DNA from: Cyanobium sp. Cruz-8D1
GTDB taxonomy: Bacteria > Cyanobacteriota > Cyanobacteriia > PCC-6307 > Cyanobiaceae
Direction: 5' to 3'
NCBI RefSeq assembly: GCF_024345975.1
Contig: NZ_JAGQCD010000001.1
Span: 124,001 to 188,000, forward strand
Length of the DNA: 64,000 nt
Position numbers and translations under genes: made by a program
The notes under the pieces: generated by a model
What the model saw: only the letters and a program-made list of their open reading frames with translations
Told to the model about the DNA's origin: nothing
Database searches by the model: none
Part shown: piece by piece, positions 57,501 through 61,986 of the stretch
Position numbering within the stretch: the stretch's first letter is position 1
Layout of the letters: every line of letters starts with the position of its first letter

Positions 57501-57517
57501 TTGATAATGATTCCCAT
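57501..57517. promoter_or_regulatory. Zur-type operator upstream of the zinc operon
   Basis: The sequence TGATAATGATTCCCA lies 33-48 bases before the start of the COG0523 GTPase gene. Its left half matches the cyanobacterial Zur half-site TGATAAT exactly, and the right half matches in 5 of 7 positions. Zur represses such operons when zinc is sufficient. A Fur site has a similar sequence; the downstream genes favour Zur. Confidence 0.65.
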
Positions 57518-57549: not shown

Positions 57550-58518
57550 ATGGCCTCCCCGCGGGATCGCTTGCCTGTCACCGTTCTGACGGGCTACCTC
57601 GGCTCCGGCAAGACCACGCTGCTGAACCGGATCCTCACCCACGAGCACGGCATGAAGGTGGCCGTGATCGTCAACGAGTTCGGTGATGTGGGCATCGACA
57701 ACCAGCTGGTGATCGAGGCCGATGAGGAGATCTTCGAGATGAACAACGGCTGCATCTGTTGCACCGTGCGTGGTGATCTCATCCGCATCATCGGCAACCT
57801 GATGAAGCGCCGCGACCGTTTCGACCACCTGGTGATCGAAACCACCGGCCTGGCCGATCCCGCCCCGGTGATTCAGACCTTCTTCGTCGATGAGGACCTG
57901 CGCGACCAGCTGAAGCTCGACGCCGTGGTCACCCTGGTCGACCTCAAGCATGTCGAGCAGCACTGGGACAGTGTGGAGGTCCAGGAGCAGCTCGCCTTCG
58001 CCGATGTGCTGCTGCTCAACAAGATCGATCTGGTCGATGTCGAGGCCTGCCTGGCCATCCAGCAGCGGACCCGGGCCATCAACCCGTTGGCCCGGGTGAT
58101 TCCCACCTGCCAGGCCGATGCGGCGATGGATCAGATCCTTGGCGTCGAGGCCTTCAGCCTGGAACGGGCCCTGGCGATCGATCCGGAGTTTCTGACCTCC
58201 GACCACGACCATGAACACGACGGGGCCATCGGCGCGGTGGCCTTCATCGAAGACCGTCCGATGAGTTACAAGAAATTGGGGCAATGGATCGATGGGTTGG
58301 TGACGGAACGGGGCCCGGATCTGTTTCGGATGAAAGGCATCATCCAGTTCGCGGGAGAGACCAACCGTTACGTCCTGCAGTCGGTGCACATGCTGGTGGA
58401 CAGCGCCATGGATCGCCCCTGGCGCGACGGCGAAACCCCCAGCACCCAGTTCGTGATCATCGGCCGCGATCTCGATGAGGCCGCCCTGCGGGCCGGTTTT
58501 GAGGCCTGTGTGGCCTGA
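57550..58518 (+). CDS. COG0523 (CobW/ZigA-like) zinc-related GTPase
   Basis: A G3E-family metal chaperone of 322 residues. The GTPase motifs are VTVLTGYLGSGKTTLLNRIL (Walker A), the ETTGLADP region and LLLNKIDLVD. The metal-binding NGCICCTVRGDL (CxCC) is intact. A short His/Asp-rich linker DHDHEHD follows near residue 220. The C-terminal CobW_C domain ends at DEAALRAGFEACVA. ATG at 57550, directly after the Zur-type box. It likely delivers zinc to essential enzymes when zinc is scarce. Confidence 0.92.
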   Translation: MASPRDRLPVTVLTGYLGSGKTTLLNRILTHEHGMKVAVIVNEFGDVGIDNQLVIEADEEIFEMNNGCICCTVRGDLIRIIGNLMKRRDRFDHLVIETTGLADPAPVIQTFFVDEDLRDQLKLDAVVTLVDLKHVEQHWDSVEVQEQLAFADVLLLNKIDLVDVEACLAIQQRTRAINPLARVIPTCQADAAMDQILGVEAFSLERALAIDPEFLTSDHDHEHDGAIGAVAFIEDRPMSYKKLGQWIDGLVTERGPDLFRMKGIIQFAGETNRYVLQSVHMLVDSAMDRPWRDGETPSTQFVIIGRDLDEAALRAGFEACVA

Positions 58519-58525
58519 GCGCGCC

Positions 58526-59626
58526 ATGGCTCCCCCCCAGACCCTGGTGCAGGAACGCCTGTGCGGTGCCTGCAGCAACGCCATCACCGCCCAGGCCTGG
58601 TCGGCCGATGGCGAGCTGCTGGCGATGGCGACGGCTGGCGGTGAGCTGCTGCTGATCGATTTCCGCGCCGGCTGCGAGGAGCTATTGCGCGGTGAGCGGG
58701 ACAGCAGCCTCGATGTGGTGGGCTTCAGCGCTGACGACCGCTTTCTGATGGCGGCGGGCCAGGACGGGGAGCTGCTGTTGTGGGAGCTGGGGGGCTCAGG
58801 CGTGCGCCCGATCGCCTTCGATCCTTTGCCCCTGGGGGGCCACTGGCTGGATGCGGCGGCCTGGCAGCCCCAGGGCTCCCTGCTGGCGGTGGGGGCCGGC
58901 AAACAGGTGCGGCTCTGGGATGGCGCCAGCCGGACGCTGCGGGTGGAAAGCCAGGAGCTGGAGGGCACGGTCCTGGCCCTGGCCTGGAGCCGTGATGGCC
59001 GGCGGCTGGCGGCGGCCTGCCACGGCACGGTGCTGCTCTGGTCTCCGGATGACCCTGGCCAGCCGCCCCAGCGCTGCGCCACCGCTTCGGCGGGCCTGGC
59101 CCTGGGCTGGTCCGGCCAGGGGAACCTGCTGGCCTGTGGCCAGCTGGACGGCTCGCTGATGCTCTGGCCCGACGGCGGGGCCGGCCGCGGCTGGCAGTTC
59201 CGTGGCTTCCCCGGCAAGGCGCGGGCCCTGAGCTGGTGTGATCAGCCGGGGCGCCTGGCGCCGCTGCTGGCCGTCGCCTCCGCCGACATCGCCGTGATCT
59301 GGAGCCAGCAGGATCCCGGTGCCAAAGGCTGGAAGCCGGAACCTCTGGTTCTGCATCAAGGCCGCGTCCATGCGGTCGCCTTTGCCCCCGGCAGCCGCCT
59401 GCTGGCCACCGCCTCCAGCGATGGCACGGTGGCGCTCTGGGATGGCCGGGGCAGGCTGCAACAGCTGCTCGAGGGCGACGGCCAGGCCATCACCAGCCTC
59501 AGCTGGCGACCCGACGGCCGCCATCTGGTGGCCGGTGGTGAGCAGGGCCAGTGGTGGCTCTGGCCCGTCGCCCGGCCCCCATCCGTTCGCTCCCGCCCAC
59601 CCCGTTCCGGAGGTTTTGCCCCATGA
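58526..59626 (+). CDS. WD40-repeat protein of the zinc operon
   Basis: A 366-residue soluble protein without a signal peptide. Repeated WD-like units are evident: ITAQAWSADGELLAMATAGG, VVGFSADDRFLMAAGQDGEL, AAAWQPQGSLLAVGAGKQVR, LALAWSRDGRRLAAACHGTV, VAFAPGSRLLATASSDGTVA, LSWRPDGRHLVAGGEQGQWW. About seven blades would form one beta-propeller. ATG at 58526 (7 bases after the GTPase stop), and its stop overlaps znuA (ATGA). Its place between a metallochaperone and znuA implies a zinc-related job, probably as a scaffold. The mechanism is unknown. Confidence 0.85.
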   Translation: MAPPQTLVQERLCGACSNAITAQAWSADGELLAMATAGGELLLIDFRAGCEELLRGERDSSLDVVGFSADDRFLMAAGQDGELLLWELGGSGVRPIAFDPLPLGGHWLDAAAWQPQGSLLAVGAGKQVRLWDGASRTLRVESQELEGTVLALAWSRDGRRLAAACHGTVLLWSPDDPGQPPQRCATASAGLALGWSGQGNLLACGQLDGSLMLWPDGGAGRGWQFRGFPGKARALSWCDQPGRLAPLLAVASADIAVIWSQQDPGAKGWKPEPLVLHQGRVHAVAFAPGSRLLATASSDGTVALWDGRGRLQQLLEGDGQAITSLSWRPDGRHLVAGGEQGQWWLWPVARPPSVRSRPPRSGGFAP

Positions 59627-60582
59627 ACCAGTCCCGATCCCGTCGTCCCCTGCTGGTCCTGGCCGCGGGTCTGTCCGCCCTGCTGCTGGCCTGCCGTCCG
59701 GCGGTGGAGTCCCCGGCGCCCCAGGCCGGCCGCGCCGATCGCCCCAAGGTGGTCACCACTTTCCTGCCGATCACCCTGTTCACCCGCGCCGTGGCCGGCG
59801 ATTGCGCCGAGGTGACGGCGCTGATCCCCGCCGCCAGCGGCCCCCACGACTTCCAGGCCAGGCCGGGGGATGTGGCCGCCATCAGGAACGCCAAGGTGCT
59901 GGTGAAGAACGGGCTGGGTATGGAGTCGTTCCTCGACAAGCTGGTCAAGGGCGCCGAAAACCCCGCTCTCCAGGTGATCGACTCCAGCCGCGGCGTCGCC
60001 ACCCTGGAGATCCCGGACGAGCCCGGTGGGGACCACGGCCATGATCACGGCCACGACCACGGCCCGATCAATCCCCACATCTGGCTCGATCCGGTGCGCG
60101 CCGCCCAGCAGGTGGACAACATCCGCGATGGTCTGATCGCGGCCGATCCGGCCTGCGCCGAGGGCTACCGCCGCAATGCCGCCGCCTTCAGCGGCGAGCT
60201 GCGCCAGCTCAACACCGAGTTCGAGACGCAGCTGGCGCCATTCCGGGGCAAGACCTTCGTGGTGGTCCACGATTTCGCCCCCTACTTCGCCGAGCGCTAT
60301 GGCCTCAAGGCCGAGTCCATGGTGGATGTGCCGGAGCAGAACCCCTCCCCGGCGGATCTGGCGCGGGTGGCCGAGACAGTGCAGCGCAGCCAGCTGCAGG
60401 CCCTGCTCAGCGAACCCCAGGAGGGCAACCGCTCCTTCAACGCCCTGGCCGGCGATCTGGGGATCCGCATCAGCGTCTTCGACCCCCTGGAAACCGGCAC
60501 TGAGGAGGCCTCCCAGACCCCGGCCAGCTACGCAGAGGTGATGCGTCGCAATGTCAGCGACCTGGTGAGCGCCTTCCGCTGA
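59623..60582 (+). CDS. znuA: Zinc ABC transporter substrate-binding lipoprotein ZnuA
   Basis: ZnuA captures zinc in the periplasm for the ZnuBC transporter. The 319 residues begin with a lipoprotein signal ending LSALLLAC. Metal ligands are the His in SGPHDFQARPGD, the His in NPHIWLDP and the His in VVVHDFAPYFAERYGL; an acidic residue follows near VFDPLE. A His-rich loop GDHGHDHGHDHG precedes the second ligand, typical of zinc-specific members. ATG at 59623 overlaps the WD40 stop. Its TGA overlaps an ATG (TGATG) opening the znuC remnant. Confidence 0.95.
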   Translation: MNQSRSRRPLLVLAAGLSALLLACRPAVESPAPQAGRADRPKVVTTFLPITLFTRAVAGDCAEVTALIPAASGPHDFQARPGDVAAIRNAKVLVKNGLGMESFLDKLVKGAENPALQVIDSSRGVATLEIPDEPGGDHGHDHGHDHGPINPHIWLDPVRAAQQVDNIRDGLIAADPACAEGYRRNAAAFSGELRQLNTEFETQLAPFRGKTFVVVHDFAPYFAERYGLKAESMVDVPEQNPSPADLARVAETVQRSQLQALLSEPQEGNRSFNALAGDLGIRISVFDPLETGTEEASQTPASYAEVMRRNVSDLVSAFR

Positions 60583-60620
60583 TGGTCGTTCTGGAGCTCA
60601 TGGGTCTGCGGATCGGATGA
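60582..60620 (+). pseudogene. Remnant of znuC (ABC ATPase) reduced to 12 codons
   Basis: Between znuA and znuB only 34 bases separate the coding regions, where znuC normally lies. They encode MVVLELMGLRIG and a stop. This is the pattern with which ABC ATPases begin (xVLELxxLxxG before the first Tyr/aromatic). The ATG overlaps the znuA stop as TGATG, and the stop overlaps the znuB start as ATGA, exactly the junctions expected of an intact znuC. The body of the gene, including Walker A, signature and Walker B, is missing. An assembly collapse could mimic this. Confidence 0.6.
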
Positions 60621-61462
60621 CGGAGTTCTCCCAGCTGGGCACGGTGATCGGCCAACCCTTCATGCAGCGCGCCCTGGTGGGGGGGCTGCTGACCGGGACC
60701 CTGGGTGGGCTGCTGGGCAGTTTCGCGGTGCTGAGGCAGCTGTCGTTCTTCAGTGATGCCCTGGGCCATTCCGCCCTGCTGGGCCTCAGCCTGGGCATCC
60801 TGCTGGGCCTCCACCCGATCCTGGTGCTGATCCCCTTTGCGGTGGTCTTCGCCCTGCTGGTGAATCTGCTGGTGGAGCGCAGCCAGCTGCCGGCCGACGC
60901 GCTGCTGAACATCGTCTACTCCACGTCCCTGGCCTTTGCCGTGGTGGCCCTCAGCCTGGTCACCACCTACAGGGGCGGCATCCAGCAGCTGCTGTTCGGC
61001 GACATCCTCGGCATCTCCTGGCTGGATCTCGTCCTGATCGCCGCGCTGTTGCTGGTGGCGGTGGCCTACCTGCTGGTGAGCCTGCGGGCCCAGGTGCTGG
61101 TCACCCTGCATGCCGATCTGGCCGGGGCCTGCGGGGTGGGCAACCAGTGGCACCGGATCGCCTTCATCCTGCTGCTCGCCGTGGTGGTGGCCGTGTCGAT
61201 CAAGGCGGTGGGGGTGCTGCTGATCAGCGCCTTCGTGGTGATTCCCGCCTGTGCGTCGCGGCTGGTGAGTCGCCACTTCGGCTCCTATCTGGTGCTCTCT
61301 TCGCTGATCGGTGGCAGTTGCGCCGTGCTGGGACTGCTCGGCTCGGGCCTCACCAACCTGCCCTCGGGCCCCTGCGTGGTGATCGTGCAGTTCTTTGGAT
61401 TCCTGCTGGCCCTGGGCTTCAGTCTGTGGCGGCGGCAGCGGGGCAGGATGTCCCAGGCCTGA
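60617..61462 (+). CDS. znuB: Zinc ABC transporter permease ZnuB
   Basis: The membrane channel of the zinc transporter, 281 residues with about eight helices. Family landmarks are PFMQRALVGGLLTGTLGGLL at the N-terminus, LRQLSFFSDALGHSALLGLS (metal permease motif), the GDILGISWLDL segment, the VSIKAVGVLLISAFVVIPAC motif and a hydrophobic end. ATG at 60617. The coupling helix for the ATPase appears intact, so it presumably still uses a ZnuC encoded elsewhere. If none exists the transporter is dead. Confidence 0.94.
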   Translation: MTEFSQLGTVIGQPFMQRALVGGLLTGTLGGLLGSFAVLRQLSFFSDALGHSALLGLSLGILLGLHPILVLIPFAVVFALLVNLLVERSQLPADALLNIVYSTSLAFAVVALSLVTTYRGGIQQLLFGDILGISWLDLVLIAALLLVAVAYLLVSLRAQVLVTLHADLAGACGVGNQWHRIAFILLLAVVVAVSIKAVGVLLISAFVVIPACASRLVSRHFGSYLVLSSLIGGSCAVLGLLGSGLTNLPSGPCVVIVQFFGFLLALGFSLWRRQRGRMSQA

Positions 61463-61464
61463 GT

Positions 61465-61986
61465 TCAGCGGCCGCGGGCAAAGCCGGCCGTCGCGTCCTG
61501 AGCCGCCGCCAGCACGATATTGGCGCAGGCCTCGGCGTCGGAGAGGGCATCGTGATGCCGGAGCGGCAGACCCAGATGGCGGCACACATCCGGCAATTTG
61601 GTGGGCCGAAGATTCCAGGCCCGCCTGGCCACCTGGACCGTGCAGACAAAGGGTTGGCTGGGAGGCCGCAGGCCGGCCTGCTCGCAGCAGGCCCGCAGCA
61701 CGCCGGCATCAAAACTGGCGTTGTGGGCGGCGATGAAGTGCGCCCCCTCCAGGCAGGCCGCCAGCTGCGGCCAGAGTTCGCCGAACGTGGGTGCATCGGA
61801 CACCTGCGACCAGCTGATGCCGTGGATGGAGGTGAACTGGAAGGTCCGCCGAGGCGGGCGAATCAAGTGGTGCTCGCGCTGCACGATCCTTCCCTTCTCC
61901 ACCCGGACCAGGGCGATCGAGCAGGCACTGTCCCGGCCTTGATCCGCCGTCTCGAAATCCAGGGCTACGAAGCAGTTCTGATGGAT
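61465..61986 (-). CDS. DEDDh-family 3'-5' exonuclease, start codon unclear
   Basis: A DnaQ/epsilon-like exonuclease of about 173 residues. Motif I FVALDFETADQG (Asp and Glu), motif II AHNASFDAGVLRA and motif III HDALSDAEACANI give all five DEDDh residues. The first GTG in frame (61902) lies after motif I and would remove it. In frame upstream there is only an ATC (61986) before a stop. Either ATC is the start, or a one-base indel separates motif I from an ATG reading MKRRHPS just upstream in another frame. It ends 2 bases after znuB, convergent. Confidence 0.75.
   Translation of the reverse strand: MHQNCFVALDFETADQGRDSACSIALVRVEKGRIVQREHHLIRPPRRTFQFTSIHGISWSQVSDAPTFGELWPQLAACLEGAHFIAAHNASFDAGVLRACCEQAGLRPPSQPFVCTVQVARRAWNLRPTKLPDVCRHLGLPLRHHDALSDAEACANIVLAAAQDATAGFARGR

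Follow-up and report, generated by a model that had tools for sequence, protein, structure and literature searches.

Introduction

Zinc importers of the ZnuABC and AztABC kind, exemplified in cyanobacteria by the products of synw0969-0971 in Synechococcus WH8102, combine a substrate-binding protein of the ZnuA family (PF01297), a permease of the ABC-3 family (PF00950) and an ABC ATPase. According to the excerpted account of WH8102, its znuABC cluster is Zur-repressed, and znuC lies next to znuB and has a Zur box in common with the divergent znuA (PMC9337993). In S. aureus, the housekeeping iron-importer ATPase FhuC powers three importers, isd, hts and sir, that have no ATPase gene in their own operons, and the coupling helix is not the only determinant of which partner it selects; no remnant of a lost ATPase gene is described in the excerpt (PMC10147376). 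Parts of a zinc importer can likewise be common to separately encoded partners, as in S. pneumoniae, where the permease and ATPase of AdcABC are reported, in an excerpt citing earlier work, to serve the orphan substrate-binding protein AdcAII (PMC12183173 citing Bayle 2011). In-trans ABC ATPases and divided zinc-importer parts are already known. Adjacent genes may also be coupled by termination and reinitiation of translation across overlaps of the ATGA or TGATG type. In the excerpted study of E. coli and Haloferax, reinitiation coupling is nearly abolished at gaps of about 20 nt (PMC10666635).

The locus described here lies in a window of 64,000 nt (the whole stretch of DNA that was analysed) from the genome of Cyanobium sp. 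Cruz-8D1, an assembly of 3.97 Mb in 108 contigs with a completeness estimate of 100%. It resembles ZnuABC and AztABC in the families of its binding protein and permease and in its Zur-box-like promoter, but where WH8102 has znuC beside znuB, znuC is here a stub of 12 codons. Like the operons served by FhuC, it encodes a permease and no ATPase and is predicted to use one from elsewhere; whereas no remnant is described for FhuC, here the deletion, the intact sister state and later fates are found within one genus. The missing part is the ATPase, unlike in S. pneumoniae, where the partner served is a binding protein. The stub has one overlap type of coupled gene pairs at its start and the other at its end, but it is a 12-codon remnant that carries them, and coupling across it is presumed. 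In the open-licence literature no description was found of such a deletion or of a dispersed Znu system in Cyanobium, and the excerpted text of PMC8786288 does not mention znuC. The account that we favour, with a probability of roughly 0.74, is that a redundant znuC was lost from the operon, that the ATPase is supplied in trans by a stand-alone ZnuC, and that the stub has been kept as a relay. This account is built on sequence comparison.

The zinc operon and its twelve-codon stub

The features of the operon are as follows, in coordinates of the window.

57502-57516, + strand: Zur-box-like palindrome TGATAATGATTCCCA, upstream of the operon, 33 nt before cobW
57550-58518, + strand: cobW-type GTPase, putative metal chaperone (PF02492, 7.3e-61; PF07683, 3e-23)
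58526-59626, + strand: WD40 beta-propeller protein (PF00400, 8.6e-36)
59623-60582, + strand: znuA, substrate-binding protein (PF01297, 3.2e-75)
60582-60620, + strand: znuC remnant of 12 codons, 9-10 codons of the head joined to 2-3 codons of the tail
60617-61462, + strand: znuB, ABC-3 family permease (PF00950, 8.5e-54)
61465-61902, - strand: RNase T-type exonuclease (PF00929, 3.8e-17), right-hand neighbour of znuB

The stub (60582-60620; DNA ATGGTCGTTCTGGAGCTCATGGGTCTGCGGATCGGATGA, peptide MVVLELMGLRIG followed by a stop) is the sole open reading frame between znuA and znuB. Its ATG overlaps the stop of znuA (TGATG) and its stop overlaps the start of znuB (ATGA), just as the first-pass annotation had described. 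The permease and binding protein, which the same annotation took to be intact, have Pfam matches that span nearly the whole profile. The operon provides a ZnuA-family substrate-binding protein and an ABC-3 family permease, and of the ABC ATPase that a ZnuABC operon would carry it has the 12-codon remnant only. Curated NCBIfam cut-offs are missed by both proteins, ZnuA scoring 125 of 268 bits for the ZnuA model and 171.2 of 350 for AztC, and ZnuB 119.5 of 284 bits for the ZnuB model and 146 of 280 for AztB. Given these scores, the predicted zinc specificity rests on the protein families, on the presence of cobW next door and on the Zur-like box.

Deletion of znuC seen in relatives

The znu site was located in relatives with the RNase T-type exonuclease gene as right-hand marker. 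(Designations beginning with G denote genomes, with C contigs and with L loci; G000 is the source genome.) A stub occupies the znuA-znuB site in six genomes, namely G000 and five others (G026, G004, G012, G013 and G060), and a full znuC is present at the equivalent site in six relatives (G025, G018, G006, G023, G008 and G002). Intact znuC has 262 codons in five of these and 248 in G002. In all six it starts with MAVLEVEGLR or MPVLEVEGLR, ends with PRIG or PRIR before the stop, and has the same junctions as the stub (TGATG with znuA, ATGA with znuB). The stub consists of the first 9-10 and the last 2-3 codons of znuC. It had been noted earlier that the stub begins like an ABC ATPase, and its head indeed matches that of intact znuC in the six relatives, because the stub is a znuC remnant.

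The gap between znuA and znuB is 787 nt with a 262-codon znuC and 37 nt with the stub, a difference of 750 nt or 250 codons. The comparison identifies an in-frame deletion that took exactly 250 of 262 znuC codons, and the clean deletion suspected in the first-pass annotation is upheld by the intact 262-codon gene at the same site. The trinucleotide CGG is present at both edges, which fits a microhomology-mediated deletion. Among relatives of znuB in named genomes, the best 80 of 191 were examined for an adjacent znuC. By our own criterion of adjacency, znuC adjoins znuB in 67 of these best 80. The other 13 comprise four with znuA next to znuB and no znuC (L115, L124, L134 and L175), five of the stand-alone type, two with znuC slightly further upstream and two cut by a contig end. 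In these 80, then, znuC has seldom been lost from its place between znuA and znuB.

Later fates of the site

Internal deletions have broken znuB in two of the six stub genomes, G013 and G060, the second of which is a close relative of G004 in the trees. G003, G062 and G009 have neither znuC nor znuB at the site, and the exonuclease region follows directly after znuA there. Within about 5 kb upstream of znuA in these three genomes, cobW and the WD40 gene were not found, apart from 37 WD40 codons in G062. Since znuB is broken in two of six stub genomes, absent in three relatives and altered at its C-terminus in G012, it may be slowly dispensable.

In a tree of concatenated rpoB, stand-alone znuC, stand-alone znuB and mntA-like genes, the six stub genomes fall together with G003, G009 and G025 in a single clade (100/100) whose inner order is weak, and G062 adjoins this clade with low support. 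The tree of rpoB by itself places those ten genomes together (100/97). Most of the inner order is weak in both trees, and a single deletion is accordingly deduced from the identical join rather than from tree topology. G025 (L078) has an intact znuC, yet its operon is apparently a mosaic. It was compared in 200-nt steps with seven genomes, four with the stub and three with the intact operon. A stub genome is the best match in 13 of 13 steps between cobW and a point about 550 nt short of the znuA end; in the next two steps, stub and intact-operon genomes match about equally; from the last 150 nt of znuA through znuC, znuB and the exonuclease gene, an intact-operon genome is best in every step, although three of these steps fall in znuC, where stub genomes offer no counterpart. 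G025 has likely regained znuC and znuB by recombination, judging from this pattern. The simplest account would be one deletion, followed by retention in four genomes, decay of the permease in two, loss of both genes in G003, G009 and perhaps G062, and regain in G025. On this account, G003, G009 and G062 may have passed through the stub state. The stub arrangement is, on this comparative evidence, unstable.

Constraint on the remaining permease

These fates can also be read as signs that the permease of the stub operon is an un-energised, decaying relic, and that only ZnuA, working with stand-alone ZnuB and ZnuC, still matters. The broken znuB of G013 and G060 and the altered C-terminus in G012 agree with this, as does the survival of znuA behind a Zur-like box in G003, G062 and G009, where znuC and znuB are gone. 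The dN/dS of znuA is also higher in stub genomes than in intact-operon genomes (0.285 vs 0.172). Selection on znuB itself points the other way. Among G000, G026, G004 and G012, the mean pairwise dN/dS of znuB is 0.19 (six pairs, range 0.06-0.36), which is far below 1 and near the 0.21 found beside intact znuC (10 pairs, five genomes; the mosaic G025 was left out). The highest values involve G012, whose znuB has a replaced end of ~14 codons; restricted to the first 262 codons, the range for the four genomes is 0.04-0.17. Codon-model log-likelihoods for znuB in stub genomes are -1651.9 with omega free and -1713.3 at omega 1, the selection estimates relying on the pairwise counts rather than on the codon-model fit. 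A dS of 0.12-0.29 between the four genomes, moreover, implies a long history after the deletion if the deletion was shared. Taken at sequence level, purifying selection on znuB suggests that ZnuB is still useful after the deletion in four stub lineages, and we regard the relic reading as unlikely.

For the other genes, dN/dS of stand-alone znuB is 0.18 in stub genomes and 0.19 in intact-operon genomes, and that of stand-alone znuC is 0.09 and 0.10, respectively. An open frame of 319-344 znuA codons is present in all 15 genomes compared.

ATPases and further Znu parts elsewhere in the genomes

Three ATPases of the znuC kind were found by a genome-wide search of G000: a ZnuC on contig C39, a stand-alone ZnuC on C45 (3171-3974) and a manganese-type, MntA-like ATPase on C65. 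The C39 gene belongs to a complete second set, cobW-WD40-znuA-znuC-znuB, and G000 also holds a stand-alone znuB besides the stand-alone znuC. The first-pass annotation had offered a loss of high-affinity zinc uptake as one explanation of the gap. This explanation was rejected for the source genome, where the complete C39 set, stand-alone znuB and znuC, and the constrained operon znuB speak against it. Its other suggestion, an ATPase borrowed from elsewhere, is the best supported of the three readings that it gave, by evidence of sequence.

The C45 ZnuC was used to query 42 genomes of the genus (E <= 1e-40) and gave matches in 38, with none in G019, G035, G061 or G064. By comparison of coordinates by eye, ZnuC lies apart from any adjoining znuB in 18 of the 38, namely a clade of 17 genomes and G031. 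The 17 include every stub and intact-operon genome of our comparison, are separated from the rest by a single branch (100/99) of a 22-genome rpoB tree, carry a stand-alone ZnuC 89-100% identical to the G000 copy, and each also have a znuB that znuC does not adjoin. In a second search with the C39 ZnuC (14 genomes, E <= 1e-20), G004 (99% complete, 10 contigs) contained only the stand-alone ZnuC and a manganese-type ATPase (37% identical). As it has no C39-type operon, stand-alone ZnuC is its only possible zinc-type ATPase. G012, G013 and G060 likewise have stand-alone ZnuC only and no C39-type operon, although G012 is merely 85% complete. The C39-type ZnuC is 96-98% identical across G000 (L066, G000:C39:12000-26000), G026 (L076) and G025 (G025:C17), and at most 82% identical in the other 11 of the 14 genomes. 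The second set was checked gene by gene as complete in G000 and G026. The C39-type sets resemble each other more closely than the native operons do, and may thus have been transferred horizontally in recent times.

Walker, Q-loop and signature motifs are all intact in the stand-alone ZnuC, which matches the NCBIfam ZnuC and AztA models below cut-off, as does the C39 ZnuC. A permease operon without its own ATPase thus coexists with an intact, related ATPase at another locus, as in known in-trans systems. Relative to the operon ZnuC of G006, identity is 68% for stand-alone ZnuC (73% around the Q-loop) and 72% for C39 ZnuC (77%). The corresponding values for the manganese-type ATPase are 33% and 28%, and its gene lies in a separate operon that has a permease of its own. 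Although it is present in all five stub genomes searched (G000, G026, G004, G012 and G013), we think it very improbable that this ATPase, rather than stand-alone ZnuC, energises the operon ZnuB.

A coupling loop was assigned in ZnuB on the basis of the protein family. The putative loops of operon ZnuB and stand-alone ZnuB are strongly different. Nine columns separate the ZnuBs of stub and intact operons, and a single one, position 176 with a fixed S to N change in the stub genomes, falls within the loop. Convergence of the operon loop on the stand-alone type was looked for in the ZnuB comparison and not found, and one ATPase would therefore need to serve two loop types.

Two other genomes show znuC apart from its partners. 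In G014 (L083), the stand-alone znuB follows znuA after 76 nt and znuC is on a different contig, an arrangement from which this second locus, too, seems once to have been a znuA-znuC-znuB operon. In G031 (L021/L081), there is a direct TGATG overlap of znuA with znuB, and znuC is on a different contig; the assembly is fragmented, and znuA there spans two frames. By gene order, znuC has apparently left the znuA-znuC-znuB arrangement three times within the genus.

Regulation

Zur-like boxes were scored against a 14-position consensus. The palindrome TGATAATGATTCCCA matches 13 of 14 positions and is the only match of at least 12 in the 64-kb window, where shuffled sequence gives an expectation of 0.1; genome-wide, its pattern occurs once exactly and five times with two mismatches. 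A Zur-like box (12 or 13 of 14) was present in all 15 operon loci scanned. It lies ~20-80 nt before znuA in G012, G013, G003 and G009, where no cobW or WD40 gene was found upstream, and about 180 nt before znuA in G062, with the WD40 remnant between. In the C39 set a box scoring 12 lies between the WD40 gene and znuA. Scans of 14 loci with stand-alone znuB and 10 with stand-alone znuC gave no Zur-like box close to the gene; one stand-alone locus has two matches ~6 kb off. The distribution of boxes suggests that Zur-induced ZnuA and ZnuB would meet a constitutive ZnuC. With no box near stand-alone znuC, the ATPase may be limiting upon induction of the operon.

The stub as a probable translational relay

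The stub is 12 codons long in all six genomes, with TGATG and ATGA overlaps in each, and this identical length argues against both chance and a collapsed assembly. Over its 32 free bases, pairs of stubs differ at 2 to 14 positions; relative to G000, the difference is 6% for G026 and 34-41% for the other four. Among the four genomes that keep znuB, stub difference exceeds znuB dS in four of six pairs and is below it in two, and the stub therefore seems to drift about as fast as synonymous sites. Its frame has remained open throughout, but only 3.3% of substitutions would create a stop, which makes the open frame suggestive and not significant as proof of selection; retention of the frame was rejected as such proof.

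An open frame of 12 codons in six of six genomes could also be taken as the mark of a functional micropeptide. However, only three of 12 residues (M1, E5 and L9) are common to all six, which leaves no conserved peptide, and differences in the free bases reach 0.44. This reading was rejected for want of conservation and has hardly any chance of being correct. The chance that the gap is an assembly or sequencing artefact, a loss of ~0.75 kb as the first-pass annotation allowed, is negligible: the unusually clean join is all that speaks for it, and the same join, surrounded by substitutions, recurs in five other genomes. Of that annotation's interpretation, the deletion stands, borrowing is the likeliest reading, assembly loss is refuted and loss of uptake is not supported.

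If a gap of about 20 nt nearly abolishes reinitiation, an untranslated gap of 37 nt should uncouple znuB from znuA; with the stub there, the neighbouring genes overlap it by 1 and 4 nt. The stub probably persists as a translational relay from znuA to znuB. A ribosome ending znuA would re-initiate at the stub ATG and, twelve codons later, at the ATG of znuB.

The sequence of events behind the favoured account, redundant loss with ATPase supply in trans, may have been as follows. The ancestor of one Cyanobium-like subclade would have had cobW-WD40-znuA-znuC-znuB behind a Zur-like box, with znuC and znuB each also standing alone at a further locus. Then 750 nt bounded by CGG were deleted in frame, which took 250 of the 262 operon znuC codons. 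Operon ZnuB would have stayed in use through stand-alone ZnuC docking in trans, as the gene inventory and selection on znuB suggest, with the C39 operon ZnuC as a possible second partner in G000 and G026. The permease later broke in two stub genomes, three relatives have neither gene at the site, and one genome seems to have regained both by recombination. A more specific combination, namely a pure relay stub without a useful peptide, a constitutive ATPase from another locus, and a zinc importer turning into a dispersed, mix-and-match system with only ZnuA (sometimes ZnuB) under Zur control, is tentative, and we would give it somewhat less than an even chance.

Implications

The intact operon, the stub beside a sound permease gene, the stub beside a broken one, znuA by itself and apparent repair by recombination make up a natural series in the break-up of an ABC importer operon, applicable once one subunit is also encoded elsewhere. 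With these matched genomes one could test whether zinc importers share ATPases, and whether a short remnant ORF can come under selection as a device for coupling. Annotators should not assume that a permease operon is dead or misassembled just because it lacks an ATPase.

Other observations at the locus

The WD40 gene is tightly linked to cobW and znuA in two paralogous operons, and it may be the counterpart of an uncharacterised gene under Zur repression in WH8102, such as synw0972 or synw0973. Upstream of znuA in G012 (L070, C181), cobW and WD40 genes are missing and about 2 kb of unrelated sequence is present, with the Zur-like box right before znuA; a serine-hydrolase-like motif was noticed by eye in these 2 kb. 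Residue 172 of the window ZnuB, in the putative coupling loop, is C in G000 and F in the nine other operon ZnuBs compared.
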